From a virus, in the IMG/VR virus record IMGVR_UViG_3300035663_000133, positions 1 to 20,547 of that record: 20,547 nucleotides of DNA. One strand, given 5' to 3'. Below the pieces are notes generated by a model. The model searched no databases. It was not told the DNA's origin and saw only the letters and a list, made by a program, of their open reading frames with translations. The translations under genes and the position numbers were made by a program. The stretch's first letter is position 1, and each line of letters begins with the position of its first letter. This document shows positions 4,158 to 13,457 of this stretch, one piece after another.

Positions 4158-4691
4158 TTAGCGGTTGATACCCAGCTGTGCCATGATCGCACGAACCAGC
4201 GCATCGGGATCGTTCTTCAACGATTCGGCGAGTTCGGTGATCTTCTCCAGCTTCATCTTCGCACCCTCACGAGTACCGCGCTCCTGCTCGGCGAAGATGT
4301 TAACTTCCGTAGCAGCATCGCGCATGAAATCAGCGAGATCAGACGGGAGAACCTTCGCATCAGTCACGCGAGAACGAACGATGCGGACAGTCTCGTTACG
4401 TTCTGCGGTATTAATGAGATCGAGAACGACAGCCTCGAAACGATCAGCCGTGATTCCGCTGGATTCAGCGGCAGACTTCGCATCGGCGAGCGAAAGATAT
4501 TCACGAACGAGAATCGCTGCGGGAGAAATCTTGATAACGGGAACGTCCTTCGCGCTTTCGCCCTTGCCATACTTCGTGGACGGGAGATGCGGATAATCAG
4601 ACGCCTTGAGATTGTTAGCAGCGAACTCGAAATACTTCGCTTCGCCCTTCGCAGTCTCAGCCTTGCCAGATGCAACCAAAGTGAACGACAT
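4158..4691 (-). CDS. Hypothetical 177-aa phage protein, probably highly expressed
   Basis: The family is not recognised. The sequence is Ala-, Lys- and Glu-rich: a mixed N-terminal part (YFEFAANNLKASDYPHL), a beta strand VPVIKISPAAILVREY near 50-65, and a mostly helical second half with charged helices that could form a coiled coil (EQERGTREGAKMKLEKITELAESL). It has no Cys and no membrane segment. Its base composition is more GC-rich than that of its neighbours. It has the most elaborate control in the window: promoter P2, a 14-bp stem-loop, a tRNA-like element and a 10-bp stem-loop all lie in its leader. The start ATG has GTGAGG seven bases upstream. This arrangement suggests an abundant early protein, such as a DNA-binding or scaffold protein, but that is inference. 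Confidence 0.8.
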   Translation of the reverse strand: MSFTLVASGKAETAKGEAKYFEFAANNLKASDYPHLPSTKYGKGESAKDVPVIKISPAAILVREYLSLADAKSAAESSGITADRFEAVVLDLINTAERNETVRIVRSRVTDAKVLPSDLADFMRDAATEVNIFAEQERGTREGAKMKLEKITELAESLKNDPDALVRAIMAQLGINR

Positions 4692-4725
4692 GATGTAGCC
4701 TCACAAATAAAGTGAGTTAATAAGT

Positions 4726-4751
4726 ATTCTATAACGGAAGTGTTATAGAAT
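4726..4751. repeat. 10-bp perfect inverted repeat in 177-aa gene leader
   Basis: ATTCTATAAC (4726-4735) and GTTATAGAAT (4742-4751) are perfect inverted copies around 6 bases. In RNA this is a stem-loop 22 bases before the ribosome-binding site of the 177-aa gene; in DNA it could be an operator. It lies between the tRNA-like element and the start codon. Confidence 0.7.
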
Positions 4752-4782
4752 TATCCATCATCCGGTTTAGGAATGAATGGAA

Positions 4783-4866
4783 TGCCTCACTAGGGAATCG
4801 AACCCTACAAACTCGCAGACGAAAACCGGAGAAGAAACGTCGCGTAGGTTTGGCCAGTCGTGAGGC
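4783..4866 (-). ncRNA. tRNA-like element 1 (no anticodon arm; tmRNA-TLD-like fold)
   Basis: The minus-strand RNA of 84 bases has a 7-bp acceptor-like stem GCCTCAC (4866-4860) with GTGAGGC (4790-4784), a one-base A discriminator, and a 5-bp T-stem TAGGG/CCCTA closing the 7-base loop TTCGATT, which fits the tRNA T-loop consensus. Between them are GACTGGC (D-loop-like, with GG) and one long hairpin: CAAAC/GTTTG, then CGCGACG with CGTC-T-GCG (one bulged T), around the 16-base loop at 4822-4837. No 5-7-5 anticodon arm or D-stem can be drawn, and base 8 is not U, so it is not a normal tRNA. The layout resembles the tRNA-like domain of tmRNA. No CCA is encoded. It lies in the leader of the 177-aa gene. 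Confidence 0.6.
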
Positions 4867-4868
4867 GT

Positions 4869-4924
4869 ACAAAACAAAATAACATCGCACACATATAAAG
4901 TGTTAAGAGATTATTTTGTTTTGT
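4869..4924 (-). promoter_or_regulatory. 14-bp stem-loop 5' of tRNA-like element 1
   Basis: ACAAAACAAAATAA (4869-4882) and TTATTTTGTTTTGT (4911-4924) are perfect inverted copies around 28 bases, which themselves hold ACAC/GTGT. In the RNA from P2 the stem ends 2 bases before the acceptor stem of the tRNA-like element. The outer stem is A/T-only except for two C/G pairs. It could present the tRNA-like element to a nuclease or protect the 5' end of the transcript. Confidence 0.65.
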
Positions 4925-4933
4925 GGTGCTGCC

Positions 4934-5113
4934 CTATGAATACAGTATAGCGGGTAGGGGTCCGAAAGTCAAGGGGTTCGGGGGAGCTGGTGAGCTGGAC
5001 AGTAGGGCAGCCAGAGCGAAGGTAGCTGGAAGTACTTGACAGAGGGCGACGCCCTCAAGGTACTGTACAACCATAACTTCTGTAGAACTGTAACTATTGA
5101 GGATAGCTTTCAT
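4934..5113 (-). CDS. Possible 59-aa ORF overlapping promoter P2 (doubtful)
   Basis: An ATG that overlaps the stop of the zinc-ribbon gene (ATGA) opens 59 codons. The first 25 residues (MKAILNSYSSTEVMVVQYLE and on) look protein-like; the rest is Pro/Ala/Leu-rich and is read through the promoter P2, ending 8 bases beyond its -10 box. The tight junction favours a real gene. The composition of the second half and the lack of a good ribosome-binding site argue against it. The function is unknown. Confidence 0.3.
   Translation of the reverse strand: MKAILNSYSSTEVMVVQYLEGVALCQVLPATFALAALLSSSPAPPNPLTFGPLPAILYS
4944..4972 (-). promoter_or_regulatory. Sigma70-type promoter P2
   Basis: On the minus strand, TTGACT (4972-4967) and TATACT (4949-4944) are separated by 17 bases. 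RNA would begin near 4937, run through the 14-bp stem-loop and tRNA-like element 1, and reach the 177-aa gene after about 245 bases of leader. It has the same boxes and spacing as P1. Confidence 0.8.
5031..5064. repeat. GC-rich stem-loop after the small-gene operon
   Basis: GAGGGC (5042-5047) pairs with GCCCTC (5051-5056) around GAC, extended by AGTAC/GTACT and TT/AA with a bulged G and an unpaired GACA. It lies about 50 bases past the stop of the 75-aa gene, where leftward transcripts could end, but no U-tract follows on either strand, so a Rho-independent terminator is not proven. Confidence 0.4.
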
Positions 5114-5337
5114 TCTACGATCTCATCTTCTGAAAGTTCGAACATCTTGTCGTAGCAATCTCCGCAAATGCCAGAGATTAAAAGCTCACGGAGATCGAGA
5201 GAAAGATACGGGAATGCATTCTGGATGCGCGTTCCATGTCTCCACTTAACGTAGTCGATCTCTTCTACAACGATATCGTGGAAGGTTCCACATCCGCCGC
5301 AGTTGCGAGATAAATCTTTTGGCTCGCGAAAGATCAT
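5110..5337 (-). CDS. Small putative zinc-ribbon protein (75 aa)
   Basis: A 75-aa protein with two CxxC pairs: CGGC at residues 13-16 and CGDC at about 58-61. They are probably the four ligands of one zinc site. Between them is a polar region with KWRHGTRIQNAF; the C-terminus is acidic (ELSEDEIVE). Such small zinc-ribbon proteins are common in phage early regions and often bind nucleic acid or host proteins, but no exact family is recognised. The start is well supported by GGAG nine bases before ATG. It starts 1 base after the stop of the 89-aa gene, so it is part of the same operon. Confidence 0.75.
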   Translation of the reverse strand: MIFREPKDLSRNCGGCGTFHDIVVEEIDYVKWRHGTRIQNAFPYLSLDLRELLISGICGDCYDKMFELSEDEIVE

Positions 5338-5338
5338 G

Positions 5339-5608
5339 TTAGTTTTCTCCTACGCGTAAACGCGATTGAAGGTGATCGACCAATCCAACCAGTGCATCGT
5401 GAGGAAGCTCCCACCTATCTTCTACAAGATAGATGTGGCAAAATGCGTCGACAGCATGATCGAATACATCGCGCAGAATCTCGCCATGAGAATCTGGTTT
5501 GTGCGGTGCGTCTACAACCATTTCGGCTTGATACTTCGCTACTTTCCCTGAATCGGGAAAGAACCAAACGCGGCCGTGCGGACTTTGTTCGATCAGAATC
5601 TTTGTCAC
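5339..5608 (-). CDS. Hypothetical 89-aa phage protein
   Basis: The function is unknown. It starts at GTG 5608, which overlaps the TGA of the preceding 77-aa gene (GTGA), so translation is probably coupled. Its middle shares a layout with that neighbour: both begin with a short beta segment, hold a DSG or EDSRG turn, then an aspartate/alanine-containing helix, and end in a segment with LPHDALVGLVDHLQSRL, compared with LPVEAMVTLLNHYHEIAL in the 77-aa protein. The two may therefore be distant paralogues by tandem duplication. There are no Cys pairs and no membrane segment. Confidence 0.7.
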   Translation of the reverse strand: MTKILIEQSPHGRVWFFPDSGKVAKYQAEMVVDAPHKPDSHGEILRDVFDHAVDAFCHIYLVEDRWELPHDALVGLVDHLQSRLRVGEN

Positions 5609-5838
5609 AGTGCGATCTCGTGATAATGGTTGAGAAGGGTAACCATTGCTTCGACGGGAAGTTCATCCACATCTCCCACGCAATAAAGCGCGCACATCGC
5701 CCACTTTGCAAAATGGTAGGGATAAGGTTCGATGTCAAATCCACGCGAATCTTCCAATATGTAATTCTTTCCATCTTCGCCAAACGGAAGATGGTACAAC
5801 TTGGAGTTTTTGTGTTCAGCTACGAGCTTCTTCACCAT
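5605..5838 (-). CDS. Hypothetical 77-aa phage protein
   Basis: The function is unknown. The ATG at 5838 is chosen because GAGG lies 8 bases upstream and overlaps the stop of the 44-aa gene. The frame is open to 5880, but that start lies inside the preceding gene and has no ribosome-binding site. The sequence is beta-like at first (KLYHLPFGEDGKNYILEDSRG), then AKWAMCALYCVGDVDELPVEAMVTLL, similar in layout to the next gene's product (LPxxAxVxLLxHxxxxxL ending), suggesting an old duplication. There is no membrane segment. Confidence 0.7.
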   Translation of the reverse strand: MVKKLVAEHKNSKLYHLPFGEDGKNYILEDSRGFDIEPYPYHFAKWAMCALYCVGDVDELPVEAMVTLLNHYHEIAL

Positions 5839-5848
5839 GTTATTATCC

Positions 5849-5983
5849 TCAGAGTTTACGAATGTGAAAGACGGCACCATCGGCGGACGTATCGTGAATC
5901 AGATCAATCACAGCTTGTGCTTCGCGAAGAGTATAGAACTCTGCGATGACGGCGTCGAGCGCCGTTACAACAATTGCGTACAT
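5849..5983 (-). CDS. Small 44-aa phage protein
   Basis: A short gene with good support: ATG at 5983 with CGGAG five bases upstream, and a TGA at 5849-5851 whose bases form part of the next gene's ribosome-binding region. The product begins MYAIVVTALDAVIAEFYTLR and ends VFHIRKL. It looks like a small alpha/beta fold with the pattern strand-helix-strand and contains the phrase TLREAQAVIDLI. I do not recognise it. The leader, with tRNA-like element 2 and the sequence ACCGTAGTACAA before CAATCGGAGAAAA, is a near-copy of the leader of the 66-aa gene. Confidence 0.7.
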   Translation of the reverse strand: MYAIVVTALDAVIAEFYTLREAQAVIDLIHDTSADGAVFHIRKL

Positions 5984-6033
5984 GTTTTCTCCGATTGTGG
6001 TGGATTGTACTACGGTGAAACAACAAAAGAAAA

Positions 6034-6080
6034 TAGGTGGGAAGGAATCGAACCTTCCATACTACCCAACATCTCACCTA
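6034..6080 (-). ncRNA. tRNA-like element 2 (47-base minimal tRNA elbow)
   Basis: The minus-strand RNA has TAGGTG (6080-6075) pairing with CACCTA (6039-6034), directly stacked on GGAAGG/CCTTCC closing the T-loop TTCGATT (6052-6046). Twelve pairs in all equal the 7+5 of a tRNA acceptor-T helix. The 16-base linker contains GTTGGGTAG, close to the tRNA D-loop consensus, but nothing like an anticodon arm fits. TTTTCTTTTG follows, so an alternative reading is an unusual terminator or attenuator. It begins 7 bases after the stop of the 66-aa gene and lies 50 bases before the 44-aa gene. No CCA is encoded. Confidence 0.6.
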
Positions 6081-6087
6081 AGTGAAA

Positions 6088-6288
6088 CTATCCGATCAGG
6101 GTTGTCACATTAGATTCACGAATCGTCGCCACCACATTCCAACCAAGGCTGCGAAAATGTTCTGCAATTTCCTTGGCCTCTTCGTTAGTAAAGAGAAACT
6201 TGAGAAAGTGAAAGTCCAGCTTCTCGCCGTGATTTTCATAGTCACGATGAGTCAGCTCAAAACGATAAATCTTCTTCTCGCGGGGCAT
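6088..6288 (-). CDS. Small 66-aa phage protein
   Basis: The function is unknown. The start is firm: CGGAG six bases before ATG. The product begins MPREKKIYRFELTHRDYE, with a beta strand, then a helix TNEEAKEIAEHFRSLGW and a closing strand NVVATIRESN: an alpha/beta layout similar to that of the 44-aa neighbour (strand, helix rich in Glu/Ala, strand). There are no Cys. The gene is flanked on both sides by tRNA-like elements (6332-6375 before, 6034-6080 after), so RNA processing at both would release it as a single-gene mRNA. Confidence 0.75.
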   Translation of the reverse strand: MPREKKIYRFELTHRDYENHGEKLDFHFLKFLFTNEEAKEIAEHFRSLGWNVVATIRESNVTTLIG

Positions 6289-6331
6289 GATTTTCTCCGA
6301 TTGGGTGAAAGTTGTACTACGGTACAGCTAA

Positions 6332-6375
6332 TCTATCTGACAGAATCGAACTGTCAACGGCCTAATCCTGATAGA
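6332..6375 (-). ncRNA. tRNA-like element 3 (44-base minimal tRNA elbow)
   Basis: The minus-strand RNA has TCTATC (6375-6370) pairing with GATAGA (6337-6332), stacked on TGACAG/CTGTCA closing the T-loop TTCGATT (6350-6344). Again there are twelve pairs with the same loop as elements 1 and 2. The 13-base linker AGGATTAGGCCGT carries a GG but no arm. It lies 43 bases before the 66-aa start and only 2 bases from the left arm of the origin-like palindrome. No CCA is encoded. Confidence 0.6.
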
Positions 6376-6377
6376 AA

Positions 6378-6624
6378 GTTCCCATGGTTCCCCAGCTTTC
6401 CCATACTTTCCCTTGGAATCCCTTGGTTTTCTGGGTATGGGTACCGAGGTCGAGAGGTAGGGTTGGTTGTTAGTAGTGTAAGTATTTAAAAATATATTAA
6501 TATATATCTATATACATATACTACTAACTACACAACCACCCACCCATACACCCGCTTGTGCCCATACCCGAAAAACCAAGAGAAAGCTCGGGAAACCATG
6601 GGAAAGCTGGGAAAGCATGGGAAC
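6378..6624. other. Candidate replication origin: large imperfect palindrome with AT-rich core
   Basis: The left arm (6378-6480) and right arm (6519-6624) are imperfect inverted copies about 105 bp long. For example, 6422-6441 and the complement of 6561-6580 agree at 18 of 20 bases, and the outer parts share a GTTCCCATG...CCAGCTTTCCCAT pattern. Each arm carries four TTTCCC (left) or GGGAAA (right) units about 9-10 bp apart, that is, on one face of the helix. The core (6481-6518) is almost pure A/T (AATATATTAATATATATCTA), fit for strand opening. No gene is plausible here. Repeats plus an AT-rich core suggest an origin; a nucleoprotein assembly site or bidirectional control region is also possible. 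Confidence 0.5.
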
Positions 6625-7138: not shown

Positions 7139-7195
7139 GAAAACTCCGGTTTTTGAAAGGTTTTGGAACGGACAGAAAGAGTCTCCCCGATTCCA

Positions 7196-7210
7196 GTACA
7201 CTTCCCGATT
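7196..7210. repeat. 15-bp inverted repeat flanking the 116-aa gene, copy B
   Basis: GTACACTTCCCGATT, the exact reverse complement of copy A (6765-6779). It lies about 58 bases upstream of the 116-aa start, where a repressor or activator of that gene could bind. Confidence 0.65.
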
Positions 7211-7499: not shown

Positions 7500-7518
7500 T
7501 ATGCCCCCGCGCCGGCAT

Positions 7519-7606
7519 TGATAATGATTTCTCATTATCAACAAACTTATTGATAATGATTTCTCATTATCATTCCCGCCATGCTGATAATGATTTCTCA
7601 TTATCA
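7519..7606. repeat. Three identical 22-bp palindromic operator-like sites
   Basis: Three exact copies (7519-7540, 7551-7572, 7585-7606) of a palindrome with half-site TGATAATGA and centre TTTC. Start-to-start spacing is 32 and 34 bp, close to three helical turns, so dimeric proteins on the three sites would face the same side. They lie 150-235 bp upstream of the rightward promoter. Their perfect identity implies selection or recent duplication. The spacers differ, which argues against a plain tandem duplication of a larger unit. Confidence 0.75.
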
Positions 7607-8402: not shown

Positions 8403-10195
8403 GTCCTATTATTGTTACTAATAGCAGCCCAAGCGGTCGCATGAGGCGCGTGAAGTGGGCGGCTGGTGAAGGTGGTGGGGGTGGTGCATACACGGTGCAG
8501 CAGCGCGTCAATCTCTGGCGATTTGATGGGAATACTGGCACCGTTCGTGTGTCAGGAGGAATCCCGTTCGCGCCGGGAGTGATGACCGATCCAAGCAAAA
8601 TTTCGCTTTGGATTGGCGGCGTCGAGCAGCGCATTGCGGTGGGCAACATTTTTGGCCGCTGGCCTGATCGAGTCTCCAAGCGTGCGGCGTGTATTCAATG
8701 GGAAGGTGCGCTGACTAATGGCGTTCCCGTTGAAGGTGAAATCCGATACGGAGTCACTCGCGCTACAACAGACCTCACGTACGCTGACGAGATTTACTTC
8801 TCTAGCAATCCTCTCGTTGCATCACGCAACCGCAAGGCGGTCATTGCGTGTATGGACTCGCAGTACCTGTGTGACACATGGGTGCTGCTGACCAGCGCCA
8901 AGCCAGAAAGCAGTCAGACGACGACATCGCTTACGCAATATTTCTCGACTGACCGCAGCGGCGACTTGAGTTATCGCGCATACGCAGGGTTCTCGAATTT
9001 CAACAACACCTTTTCTCCCGGTGTTGCACGCGGCACTGGTACGACGTACGAACACGTTTGGGCAAGACAAGCGGCGTACGTACGTACGACATCGGATGCA
9101 AACCGACGAACGTACTATCAAGAGTGGCATGAGCTAATTACGAATCTGGCAACAGAAGAGTATAGCCAACGACTTGGTTCAAACAATCTTGCCTACACTC
9201 AACTTTGGGCAATCGACCCATCGTTGCCTGTGGCGCTATCGCCAGATTCGTACGCTTTGGTTGGAGAAGCGTTCACCGGCTTTTTCTTCGGTCTGACCTC
9301 TGGCTATCTTCTGAGCGGATACAAACAATGCTGGCGCGCAATTAATCGTCATGCAGGAGCAGCCTTCGGAGACGCAGCGTTTCACGGGTTCTCTGGCGAG
9401 TGGATCAAGAACAACGAGTACGCATCGCCACGCTTTAATCTCCATTTAGGCATCAACCCTCTCATGTGTGCCTACGTTATTGAGGCGACCCAGACAATCG
9501 TTGGTGGCTATACCTCGTATGGGTTTGGCCGAGACAATAGTGTTGAAAGCTGGTCGCGAGATTTAAGCACTATGATCGACGATTTAGACACTTTCAAGTT
9601 CACGACGGCGAACTACGCCGCATGGAAAGATGGTGTCGTTGGTATGCGCCCAACGCTAACCGTTGGATATCCCCCTTCCAGTCCAATCGCCGGAAGAGTT
9701 GGTGTATTCCAAGCTCTCATCATTGCCAACACGCTGCGTTTTTACTACGAAAACATTAAGAACGACAGCCGCATTCCAACGATGCTTGTGAAACTTGCAG
9801 ATTGGGCTGCTGGGCAGGTTGCCACGTTTACGACGGGCGTAAACACAGGGAAGATCGGTATCCCGTACACTGATGCCGCAACGCCACGCACGCAAGCGGA
9901 CTTTGACGATGACGCACTGTTCTACCCCGGTACGATTATCGAGCCGCTGGCCGCAGCATATGCAATCACTGGGACGGCGTCATATAAAACGCTCGCATTA
10001 CAGTGTGCCAGTAAAGCCCAACTAGGAGAGGATGGATCGTCCTTCGTGCCCAACATCAAGGGCGAGGGCGAGTATTTCCGCGCCAGCCAACAGAGTCTTC
10101 CATATCTGCTGGAAGGTGGCGTATTGCGACCGCTCGGTAATGCTGGACATCCGACCGCAATCTTCGACGATCTCCCCTCTCATCCAGCATCCTAA
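8399..10195 (+). CDS. Putative tail protein with RIFT-barrel (PcRGLX/YetA-like) domain and toroid-like C-terminal part
   Basis: A 598-aa protein. After a Gly-rich linker (about 24-29), residues 42-120 show the pattern of the N-terminal RIFT barrel of PcRGLX/YetA-like proteins (exo-rhamnogalacturonan-lyase family): SGGIPFAPGVMTDPSKISLW, GGVEQR, then GRWPDR and IQWEGAL. The rest (about 150-580) is rich in aromatic residues and helices, with repeated Trp/Tyr/Gly motifs typical of alpha/alpha-toroid carbohydrate-active enzymes. It probably degrades or binds surface polysaccharide as a tail spike or fibre-associated protein. Catalytic residues cannot be assigned by eye. The ATG overlaps the preceding stop (ATGA); there is no Shine-Dalgarno sequence, so translation is probably coupled. 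The LamG-like protein follows 3 bases later. Confidence 0.6.
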   Translation: MSPIIVTNSSPSGRMRRVKWAAGEGGGGGAYTVQQRVNLWRFDGNTGTVRVSGGIPFAPGVMTDPSKISLWIGGVEQRIAVGNIFGRWPDRVSKRAACIQWEGALTNGVPVEGEIRYGVTRATTDLTYADEIYFSSNPLVASRNRKAVIACMDSQYLCDTWVLLTSAKPESSQTTTSLTQYFSTDRSGDLSYRAYAGFSNFNNTFSPGVARGTGTTYEHVWARQAAYVRTTSDANRRTYYQEWHELITNLATEEYSQRLGSNNLAYTQLWAIDPSLPVALSPDSYALVGEAFTGFFFGLTSGYLLSGYKQCWRAINRHAGAAFGDAAFHGFSGEWIKNNEYASPRFNLHLGINPLMCAYVIEATQTIVGGYTSYGFGRDNSVESWSRDLSTMIDDLDTFKFTTANYAAWKDGVVGMRPTLTVGYPPSSPIAGRVGVFQALIIANTLRFYYENIKNDSRIPTMLVKLADWAAGQVATFTTGVNTGKIGIPYTDAATPRTQADFDDDALFYPGTIIEPLAAAYAITGTASYKTLALQCASKAQLGEDGSSFVPNIKGEGEYFRASQQSLPYLLEGGVLRPLGNAGHPTAIFDDLPSHPAS

Positions 10196-10198
10196 ACC

Positions 10199-11362
10199 AT
10201 GAGCGTACTACGCACAGATTTCTCTGGTGTCTTCGATGCAGGGTTGTTTACGAAGTACGACATCGGCGGCACAGTTACACAAACTGGCGGCGAAATTATC
10301 TTCGATGGGACAGACCCCTTCGTTGTTGATGTTACACCAGTTAACGCGACCGACTCATACTTTGCGGTCCAAATATCGAGCTATCCTGCTGCTAACACAG
10401 ACTACCGCTTTTTTGTCGGTGCAATCGACTCTGCTGGTCGTGGCATCGGGTTGCGTTTTTCTGCTGGATCATTCGATGCATTAAATCGACAAGATAGCGG
10501 AACCGCGCAAGCTCTTACTACTGCGGGGTTGTCCGGTGGGGCGAGTTGGTCTACATCGTACACGTTTGCTCGCACAAGGTTCAGTGGCGGGTTGGCTTAC
10601 TGTGAAGGCAGTAGTGACGGAGTTACTTGGACCGAGGTGTTTAATGCATCGGTACCGAGTGGGTTTGACATTACCAACGTACGCGGCGTGTTCGGCCAAG
10701 CTGGGTCATTCAATCCGTCGATTTACAAGGTCACGAACTACTACGCGCCTGCTCTCGCCGGTCCCGCCGCCGCAAGCGACAATTTCAATCGTGCAGACGG
10801 TGATCCCGGAAGTAATTGGGATACGATGACGGGTGCGTCTCGACTCCAGATTGTCAGCAACTCGGTGCGTGGAGACGCCAGCTTCACGCCGTTCGCGTTG
10901 GCGTGGAAAGAGAGTGTTGCAAATTTCAGCGACGATCAGGAATCGAGCGTGACAATCGTAAGCACAGGAACATCGGACGCATACGGTCCAGCAGTTCGCA
11001 TGAGCATCGGAGCGGGAACGTGTTATGCGCTGCGATGTTCAACAGGTAACACTGACGTAAGCGTTGAGAGCTGGAACAATGGTTCTAACACGCTACTTGG
11101 ATTGATTGCGGGTGTCGGCGTTGCAGTCAGCGATGTTTTTAAGTTGCGAATTGTCGGTACAACTCTCACGACATTCAAAAACGGAACACTCGTAGATACG
11201 CGAACAGTTACAACGCACAGTACGGGCCAGCCGGGAATCTACGGCTACCACTTTGGCGAGAATAGTACTCGTGTCGATACTTGGTCTGCGGCTGACGCCT
11301 CTGCTTCTACATCCGCAACCGCTGCAATTTCATCTGGCTACCATAACCGAGGACTACGTTAA
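10199..11362 (+). CDS. Virion-associated protein with two LamG/concanavalin-like repeats
   Basis: A 387-aa beta-rich protein. Two similar halves are visible: residues 1-185, starting with LRTDFSGVFDAG, and 190-375, starting with SDNFNRADGDPGSNWDTMTG. The second start is the typical opening of a LamG-like (concanavalin-type) jelly-roll domain, and FKNGTLVDTRTVTTHSTGQPGIYGY is a typical closing hairpin. Such domains bind carbohydrate. Together with the preceding RIFT/toroid protein it probably forms part of the receptor-binding apparatus. The C-terminal 25 residues are Ala/Ser/Thr-rich. The start context is again ACCATGAG without a Shine-Dalgarno sequence. The next gene starts directly after its stop. 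Confidence 0.65.
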   Translation: MSVLRTDFSGVFDAGLFTKYDIGGTVTQTGGEIIFDGTDPFVVDVTPVNATDSYFAVQISSYPAANTDYRFFVGAIDSAGRGIGLRFSAGSFDALNRQDSGTAQALTTAGLSGGASWSTSYTFARTRFSGGLAYCEGSSDGVTWTEVFNASVPSGFDITNVRGVFGQAGSFNPSIYKVTNYYAPALAGPAAASDNFNRADGDPGSNWDTMTGASRLQIVSNSVRGDASFTPFALAWKESVANFSDDQESSVTIVSTGTSDAYGPAVRMSIGAGTCYALRCSTGNTDVSVESWNNGSNTLLGLIAGVGVAVSDVFKLRIVGTTLTTFKNGTLVDTRTVTTHSTGQPGIYGYHFGENSTRVDTWSAADASASTSATAAISSGYHNRGLR

Positions 11363-12068: not shown

Positions 12069-13457
12069 ATGGCTGATAACGTAACACTTGGTAGCGCAAC
12101 GTACGCAACCGACGACATTGGTGGTGTGCAATACCCCCGTGAAAAGATTATCTGGGGTGGAGATGGTGTTGCTAACGAAGTAACTGAGGCCAACCCACTG
12201 CCTGTTGTTACGAGCGGCTATGATCCTGTCGGTCAAAAGCTGTTGGTTGGTACGGCTCGCGAGAGGTTCTTTGAAGACTTCAACACGTTTGACACGGTAA
12301 ATACGTGGGAAGTTACGCAGACGGGTCCTGGCATGACAATCACGGGTCCTCTCGGTGGTGCGGCAGCGGGTAGTAAGCCGTATCTCAACATCGCATCGGG
12401 TGTGACGACCGCATCAAAGACGATCATCTTGTCGCGCAGCATTTTCTCTATGCCGCTGGATGTTCGTTATCAAATCTCGGCATCGCAGCGTATTGCGAAC
12501 AATCGTTGCATTGTTGGACTCGTCGAGTGTAACAGCGCCGGTGTGTTGGTGACGGATACGACGTATGCATCTGCTGCTGATTTGCTCAACACGCGAAATG
12601 CCGTGGCTCACGTACACGATGGAACGACGGCCACGACTGCCCAGTTGTATGCTCGCGGAGCAGGATCGGCCATCGACATTTTCGCAAATGCGTTTGGCAC
12701 AGGATTTACCACCGTGGCAACCGGCACTGGCCCAAACTGGATCGCCGCGACCGTCTTCGGCTTTATGGCCGAGCGAGATCGCATTAATTCGCGAGCGTGG
12801 GGACAGAACGCAATCACGAATTTGGGCGGGCAGTTTGGATATGATCGTGTTCTGCCGAGTCCGACAAAGCTATACCGCTTGGCAATCATCGTAGAAAACA
12901 CGGGTGTTCCTGCTTCGACGACTGATTGGCGTATCCATCTAGTCAATATCATGGATGCGACGCGGTTTGATGTGTCTTCGCGCAACGGTGGCAGCACAGA
13001 TGCGAGCAAAGCACTTCCAGTTCTCGCAAACCTTGCCCCGGCACAAACGCTCGCTACTGTTACTACTGTCACGAACGTTACGACGGCAGGAACTCCACTC
13101 GCGCCCGCCACACCGTACATTCTTAATTCAGTCGCCGGCACCAACGGCGCATTGATTCTGACGGGTACGTCTGGACTTCATGCGTTCTACGCGACAAATA
13201 CAGGTGCTTCTGTCGCGTTTGTGAAGTTGTACAACAAGGCGACTGCACCGACCGTGGGCACCGATGTTCCCGCAATGATTCTGCCCGTTCCTGCCGCAGT
13301 TGGTGGCGTTCCCGGTGTATGTACGTTGCCTATTGGATTCAACGGGTTCCGCTTCGCGCTAGGATTGGGAATCGCAATCACTGGTTTGGTGGCTGATACC
13401 GATACCACCGCTGTCGCGGCTGGTCAGGTTAAAGTAATCCTCTCGCGGACAGTGTAA
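12069..13457 (+). CDS. Virion structural protein with phage N-terminal motif (462 aa)
   Basis: The N-terminus has the arrangement ATDDIGGVQYPREKI, then GGDGVANEVTEANPLPVV, which I know from many phage structural proteins near tail-fibre genes. The middle (about 65-310) looks like a jelly-roll or LamG-like domain (FFEDFNTFDTVNTWEVTQTG as opening, YRLAIIVENTG, DWRIHLVNI near the end). The C-terminal 130 residues are a separate beta domain rich in Thr/Ala/Gly. It is a probable tail or capsid-surface protein. The start is firm: GAGGA eight bases upstream. Its TAA shares one base with the next start (TAATG). Confidence 0.7.
   Translation: MADNVTLGSATYATDDIGGVQYPREKIIWGGDGVANEVTEANPLPVVTSGYDPVGQKLLVGTARERFFEDFNTFDTVNTWEVTQTGPGMTITGPLGGAAAGSKPYLNIASGVTTASKTIILSRSIFSMPLDVRYQISASQRIANNRCIVGLVECNSAGVLVTDTTYASAADLLNTRNAVAHVHDGTTATTAQLYARGAGSAIDIFANAFGTGFTTVATGTGPNWIAATVFGFMAERDRINSRAWGQNAITNLGGQFGYDRVLPSPTKLYRLAIIVENTGVPASTTDWRIHLVNIMDATRFDVSSRNGGSTDASKALPVLANLAPAQTLATVTTVTNVTTAGTPLAPATPYILNSVAGTNGALILTGTSGLHAFYATNTGASVAFVKLYNKATAPTVGTDVPAMILPVPAAVGGVPGVCTLPIGFNGFRFALGLGIAITGLVADTDTTAVAAGQVKVILSRTV

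Follow-up and report, generated by a model that had tools for sequence, protein, structure and literature searches.

Trimmed-down tRNA-like RNAs in phage mRNAs as possible sites of action for tRNA-maturation enzymes

In plant mitochondrial t-elements and in mitochondrial tRNA punctuation, tRNA-like folds are found where tRNA-processing enzymes make the ends of mRNAs, and the C4 antisense RNA of phages P1 and P7 is reportedly, in work by Hartmann from 1995, processed by RNase P. RNase P measures the stack formed by the T-arm and the acceptor, at a fixed distance from the elbow; the D-loop is dispensable, but a T-loop or a similar loop is required, and pre-tRNAs without an encoded CCA are matured by RNase Z (PMC4919913). 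The enzyme cleaves hairpins consisting of the acceptor, T-stem and T-loop at the canonical site, and these are good substrates (PMC11143913). It also cuts longer RNAs at tRNA-like elements, as in MALAT1 mascRNA and the MEN beta tRNA-like RNA (PMC4919913), and the 3' tRNA-like structures of plant viruses, such as turnip yellow mosaic virus (TYMV), are viral tRNA mimics recognised by RNase P (references in PMC11143913). Natural tRNA-like substrates of RNase P are already known. Three tRNA-like elements, TLS-L, TLS-A and TLS-B, on the minus strand of IMG/VR record IMGVR_UViG_3300035663_000133 (20,547 bp, analysed in full and referred to here as the window) have a form reduced to the tRNA elbow in TLS-A and TLS-B, a form apparently undescribed in phages.

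The window comes from a tailed phage, as judged from its terminase and SNF2 helicase genes. A terminase search of IMG/VR yielded five contigs, three of which have the same early region: G001 (contig L011, 49.1 kb), G004 (L014, 38.4 kb) and G005 (L016, 49.7 kb). TLS-L and TLS-A are present in all four genomes and TLS-B in two (window and G001), giving ten copies for comparison: four of TLS-L, four of TLS-A and two of TLS-B (A-win denotes the window copy of TLS-A, and so on). A preliminary description of this DNA had proposed three minus-strand tRNA-like elements with a T-loop and a GG-containing linker, and their existence is confirmed by descriptor matches, shuffles and homologues.

4866-4784, minus strand: TLS-L, the long element, 83 nt, with a 7-bp acceptor GCCTCAC/GTGAGGC (4866-4860/4790-4784)
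4859-4853, minus strand: linker of TLS-L, GACTGGC
4852-4808, minus strand: long hairpin of TLS-L
4822-4837, minus strand: loop of the TLS-L hairpin, UUUCUUCUCCGGUUUU, with the core CUCCGGUU, which is invariant in the four-genome alignment
4807-4791, minus strand: T-arm of TLS-L, TAGGG-UUCGAUU-CCCUA, with a 5-bp T-stem
6080-6034, minus strand: TLS-B, a short element, 47 nt, TAGGTG/CACCTA and GGAAGG/CCTTCC
6375-6332, minus strand: TLS-A, a short element, 44 nt, TCTATC/GATAGA and GACAG/CTGTC, with the linker AGGATTAGGCCGTT

TLS-A and TLS-B (43–48 nt across genomes) consist of an acceptor, a GG-containing linker of about 13–17 nt and a T-arm, and nothing else; the linker of TLS-B, AGATGTTGGGTAGTAT, includes the D-loop-like string GTTGGGTAG. 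TLS-L is 83–89 nt long. The acceptor and T-stem form 12 layers in all ten elements, matching the 7 + 5 pairs of tRNA. The 12 pairs initially reported hold for TLS-L and TLS-B, whereas TLS-A has 11 pairs and one A-A mismatch, which together make 12 layers. All copies of TLS-L and TLS-B have a 7 + 5 bp stack with a UUCRA T-loop and G53-C61; the TLS-A copies of the window, G004 and G005 are mismatched at layer 7, and that of G001 has 7 + 5 pairs and a six-base T-loop, UGCAAU, closed by C-G, with the 12 layers retained. This loop still fits the general T-loop motif U-(U/G)-N-R-A. There is a U at position -1 in eight of the ten elements (P = 0.001 versus local background), none of the ten encodes CCA, and the trailers 3' of the elements are mostly A/U-rich, resembling those behind the true tRNAs of the relatives. 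The elements had been placed in the leaders of leftward genes; this is correct for TLS-L, which has its own sigma-70-like promoter and precedes the same 177-amino-acid (aa) gene in all four genomes, but TLS-B is intercistronic, 7 nt past the stop codon of a 66-aa gene and about 50 nt ahead of the next ATG (its G001 homologue is at L011:1270, plus strand). In each of the four genomes, TLS-A comes directly after a large inverted repeat.

Mitochondrial t-elements and tRNA punctuation are organellar, whereas TLS-A and TLS-B are viral and only 43–48 nt long. The mascRNA and MEN beta RNA are eukaryotic, about 60 nt long and cloverleaf-like, unlike the phage elements. TYMV-type structures form the 3' ends of RNA virus genomes, with a pseudoknotted acceptor, and are often aminoacylated, whereas the phage elements are internal and lie in the mRNAs of double-stranded DNA phages. 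The synthetic acceptor/T minihelices used as RNase P substrates (PMC11143913) have the same stack and T-loop, with no D-arm or anticodon arm; in contrast to these, the phage elements are naturally encoded, conserved by covariation, located within mRNA, and keep a GG-containing linker. No described phage element of elbow-only form was found in Rfam or in the literature searched, in agreement with the preliminary description.

A strict short-form descriptor matches the window twice, at exactly TLS-A and TLS-B, versus 0.005 matches per second-order Markov shuffle (400 shuffles, with a maximum of one match in any), and a broader descriptor (UUCRA or UGCRA, loop of 6 or 7) has no match in unrelated viral DNA totalling 1.21 Mb. 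Across four genomes, all 12 acceptor/T pairs of TLS-L are retained, 8 of them altered on both sides, and all 11 pairs of TLS-A are intact, with 10 altered on both sides; in the two genomes with TLS-B, 12 of 12 pairs are intact and 5 are altered on both sides. These stacks contain no one-sided change and no broken pair, and if the 5' and 3' strands are taken from different genomes, the number of pairs falls, at the lowest, to 3 of 11. The pairs of the short elements were laid out manually and then counted by script. For TLS-L, a formal count over the whole element gave 12 of 21 pairs changed on both sides, a value reached by none of the 500 shuffles and none of the slid controls. A covariance model of TLS-L (R1) scored the four homologues, the same four on which it was trained, at 92–104 bits; the next-best matches were the phages' own tRNA genes (29–21.7 bits), and the TLS-B copies scored 17.4 and 16.2 bits. 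A lack of compensatory changes in relatives would, by the preliminary description, have counted against the elements, but the compensation observed is very strong; covariation also bears out its view that the elements have no D-stem and that TLS-A and TLS-B have no anticodon arm. On this sequence evidence, the three elements are selected tRNA-like RNAs, kept by evolution although they are incapable of a role in translation.

Conventional annotation does not recognise them. ARAGORN found no tRNA or transfer-messenger RNA (tmRNA) in the window. An Rfam search of the element region gave a single sub-threshold match (RF01852 for TLS-B, 17.5 bits versus a cut-off of 47, E = 3.3) and no match to RF00005 at E ≤ 10, the gathering threshold being passed only by the true tRNAs of the relatives; the Rfam check suggested in the preliminary description is, thus, negative. 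A tRNA identity was rejected given the absence of a cloverleaf with a D-stem and an anticodon arm and the shortness of TLS-A and TLS-B. TLS-L shares with the tRNA-like domain of tmRNA an acceptor and T-arm, a D-loop-like linker without a D-stem and a long hairpin in the place of the anticodon arm, but it has no tag reading frame, pseudoknot chain or Rfam tmRNA match; its 83–89 nt leave no room for the reading frame and pseudoknots, and a tmRNA identity was rejected. Mimicry of the substrate of alanyl-tRNA synthetase is unlikely because the acceptors lack G3-U70, and an origin as an attachment site (a tRNA 3' end) was rejected because the 5' and 3' acceptor strands covary.

True tRNA genes, for tRNA-Leu(TAA) and tRNA-Gln(TTG), without an encoded CCA, are present in the relatives and absent from the window.

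L011 (G001), 703-786 and 12898-12970: true tRNA genes
L014 (G004), 10118-10201: true tRNA gene
L016 (G005), 7139-7209: true tRNA gene

In G004, a homologue of the 66-aa gene (46% identity) is followed by tRNA-Leu(TAA) where the window has TLS-B. The elements could, on this basis, be viewed as relics of tRNA genes that have lost their D and anticodon arms and their function, a view to which the persistence of the D-loop-like GTTGGGTAG in TLS-B and the true tRNAs of the relatives lend some weight. Relics would not, however, retain every pair while both sides change in most of them (10 of 11 or 8 of 12), which makes this explanation scarcely credible; descent from tRNA genes is plausible, but loss of function is not. 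Two other features were observed near the G001 tRNA-Leu gene and TLS-B. Between them, L011:859-1266 may encode a small nucleotidyltransferase-like protein (sub-threshold match to Pfam NTP_transf_5), absent from the corresponding place in the window, and behind TLS-B, at L011:1325-1405, a long stem CTTAAGTCT...AGACTTAAG surrounds a G+C-rich sequence and is possibly a structured RNA.

Processing by tRNA-maturation enzymes is the probable mechanism of action, as far as can be judged from sequence, and punctuation of this type, one of the roles proposed in the preliminary description, is favoured because of the 12-layer stack, the U at position -1, the CCA-less tRNA-like trailers and the replacement of TLS-B by tRNA-Leu in G004. 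The T-loop and the 12-layer stack from elbow to cut site expected of an RNase P substrate are found in all ten elements. The elements form a family of trimmed-down natural tRNA-like RNAs, in which a coaxial stack of acceptor and T-stem, 12 layers high, is capped by the T-loop, while the GG-containing linker takes the place of the D-arm and may lock onto this loop. They would provide host tRNA-maturation enzymes with an address within phage mRNAs: the cut directly 5' of the acceptor would be made by RNase P and that on its 3' side by RNase Z or exonucleases, such that the leftward transcript would be split at TLS-A and TLS-B, and TLS-L would be released or defined within the leader of the 177-aa gene. 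Taken as a whole, this explanation of the elements as places where RNase P and RNase Z act on phage mRNA is about evenly poised between right and wrong.

Intrinsic terminators with T-arm-like hairpins are a very improbable substitute for this processing model. A terminator scan flags TLS-B in the window (GGAAGG...CCTTCC, with the tail CACCTATTTT), but the number of terminators that it reports is not clearly above chance, and a T-run is absent behind A-win (TTAGCTG), A-G001 (CTTCCCC) and B-G001 (TTAACTTT). The stem is, moreover, interrupted by a linker of 13–17 nt, unlike the uninterrupted G+C-rich hairpin with a U-run of a terminator, and the conservation of the T-loop and GG would be left unexplained. 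It is also unlikely that the elements are trans-acting small RNAs or decoys occupying a host tRNA-binding factor (RNase P/Z, CCA enzyme, T-loop modification enzymes, EF-Tu or a tRNA-targeting defence nuclease). The acceptor/T half that they retain could be read by all of these factors, and anticodon-dependent recognition is impossible for TLS-A and TLS-B; nothing is conserved, however, beyond the generic fold, with outer T-stem pairs varying freely, no G3-U70 and no CCA, and single copies beside particular genes fit a role in cis better.

The preliminary description missed a special property of TLS-L, a conserved loop that is complementary both to a hairpin further along the leader and to the Shine-Dalgarno sequence of a nearby gene. 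The features concerned are as follows.

4972-4944, minus strand: sigma-70-like promoter TTGACT-17-TATACT (TTGACA-17-TATACT with equal spacing in the relatives)
4869-4924, minus strand: A/U-rich hairpin H0, a 14-bp perfect inverted repeat that separates the promoter from TLS-L
4755-4780, minus strand: leader hairpin KH, whose loop contains AAACC; the TLS-L loop is complementary to its AAACCGGA (4768-4761)
4727-4750, minus strand: leader hairpin TTCTATAACACTTCCGTTATAGAA, with a hairpin of altered stem in the same place in G001 and G004
4700-4716, minus strand: hairpin CTCAC-UUUAUUU-GTGAG, overlapping the Shine-Dalgarno sequence of the 177-aa gene
4158-4691, minus strand: 177-aa protein gene downstream of TLS-L, 67–69% identity in the relatives
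6088-6288, minus strand: 66-aa gene between TLS-A and TLS-B; its Shine-Dalgarno sequence AATCGGAGAA (6302-6293) complements the TLS-L loop
6788-7138, minus strand: gene M (MSRKNKPRR...); a 10-nt stretch of the TLS-L loop pairs with AAAACCGGAG (7153-7144) at its Shine-Dalgarno sequence

The TLS-L loop, of 16–18 nt, complements two sites in the window, at 4761-4768 (KH) and 7144-7153 (gene M). Contiguous pairs with KH number 8 in the window, 9 in G001, 10 in G004 and 9 in G005 (the register printed by the tool for G001 has 14 pairs, G-U included). With the gene M Shine-Dalgarno sequence, the loop forms 10 pairs in the window, 9 in G001 and 10 in G004, as read from the sequences, the script's best register differing for G001 and G005. 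Among the leaders of all open reading frames (ORFs), gene M ranks second of 129 for loop complementarity in the window, second of 270 in G001 and first of 212 in G004, and falls outside the top nine in G005. The window genes behind TLS-A and TLS-B both carry AATCGGAGAA, complementary to the TLS-L loop with one G-U pair. These matches suggest docking of the loop in cis on its own leader and/or C4-like antisense control: the loop, through its CUCCGGUU core, might dock on the hairpin of the leader to which it belongs, or it might serve as an antisense against the Shine-Dalgarno sequence of gene M plus those of the genes behind TLS-A and TLS-B in the window. C4 RNA lacks a tRNA acceptor/T-arm module of the kind seen in TLS-L. 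C4 is, like TLS-L, a phage RNA; it is processed and works as an antisense close to a ribosome-binding site (RBS). TLS-L differs in its position, within another gene's leader, and its processing is presumed. A full picture in which elbow-only elements form an mRNA-punctuating class and TLS-L is a derived long member, an antisense regulator built on a tRNA scaffold and directed at a neighbouring phage gene, is possible but doubtful.

The same leader suggests an explanation without cleavage, in which uncut tRNA-like folds serve as rigid scaffolds: the TLS-L loop would kiss KH, generating a compact 5' untranslated region by which the level of translation of the 177-aa gene is set, and TLS-A and TLS-B would act likewise for their genes or shield mRNA ends. 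The complementarity of 8–10 contiguous pairs between TLS-L and KH in all four genomes is consistent with such a role, as is the ordered series of hairpins (H0, TLS-L, KH, RBS hairpin) with altered stems, and tertiary folding without processing would also account for the 12 layers and the GG. This explanation leaves the U at position -1, the tRNA-type trailers and the exchange of TLS-B for a tRNA unexplained, and is rather unlikely. In the three relatives, a hairpin of other sequence occupies the H0 position; promoter-like sites are no commoner than chance in a promoter scan, yet the promoter/leader layout is conserved in these three genomes. The 177-aa protein has no Pfam or PHROG match, and its structure model is of low confidence (predicted local distance difference test score, pLDDT, of 51), too poor for a structure search. 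An additional structured module lies between TLS-L and KH in G004 (L014:9000-9170, minus strand) and G005 (L016:17380-17540, minus strand). It has three hairpins inside a closing stem; the stems covary, the two sides of a 6-bp loop-loop complement alter together (GTTAGT/ACTAAC as against TGATTA/TAATCA), and the module has no Rfam match.

Several observations weigh against processing at these elements and against regulation by the TLS-L loop. The preference of RNase P is for G1-C72 and a 3' RCCA, and the first acceptor pair is U-A or A-U in most elements. Only four genomes were compared, so TLS-A and TLS-L represent few independent events and TLS-B a single comparison. The probability of acceptor pairing, calculated with 20-nt flanks, is only 0.00–0.11 for B-win, B-G001, A-G001, A-G005 and L-G005, as against 0.73 for A-win and 0.97–1.00 for A-G004 and the other three TLS-L copies, and the energy model gives the G001 copy of TLS-A a different fold. 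Tertiary contacts are outside the scope of nearest-neighbour energy models; as several folds are disfavoured by energy in context, a contact between the T-loop and the linker, or a protein, would be needed. In G005, the loop and gene M match less well (6 pairs and a bulge), and antisense action or docking should be taken as a lead only, because Shine-Dalgarno sequences (GGAG) pair with any CUCC-like loop.

The phages concerned are a little-known group of bacterial viruses. A blastn search of the element region against 50,697 phages gave no match, nor did a search for the 177-aa protein in phages; nothing was found by an SNF2 helicase search of viral contigs or by searching GTDB contigs with alignments of the 177-aa protein and terminase. 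In a scan of viral sequences for the linker and T-loop pattern of TLS-B, G001 was the sole match; the TLS-L loop pattern TTCTCTCCGGTT matched 94 contigs, the element itself being present only in G001 and G005, and a scan for the RBS-hairpin pattern revealed no additional element. The distant terminase relatives L116–L118 contain no convincing element, L116 and L118 having one weak candidate each, with a six-base loop. Other features were noted in the window. A large imperfect inverted repeat at 6378-6624, with 67-nt arms (81%), TGGGAA units and a centre rich in A/T, is possibly a replication origin; a similar structure immediately precedes TLS-A in every one of the four genomes. Rfam microRNA matches at 6380-6623 are sub-threshold and produced by this repeat. 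Three 24-nt iterons, ATTGATAATGATTTCTCATTATCA, with internal dyads and a spacing of 32–34, are found at 7517-7606, near a divergent gene boundary, and a pyrimidine dimer DNA glycosylase gene (Pfam Pyr_excise) is located at 664-1239.

If the processing model is correct, selection has arrived at the acceptor/T minihelix that biochemists built as a minimal RNase P substrate, retaining a D-loop-like lock without a D-stem, and phage mRNA would be punctuated by tRNA folds without tRNA function. Mimicry of tRNA would, in TLS-L, be tied to antisense control, as in a C4-like RNA on a tRNA scaffold. Such elements are overlooked by tRNA finders and Rfam, and the descriptor supplied here provides a means of recognising them.

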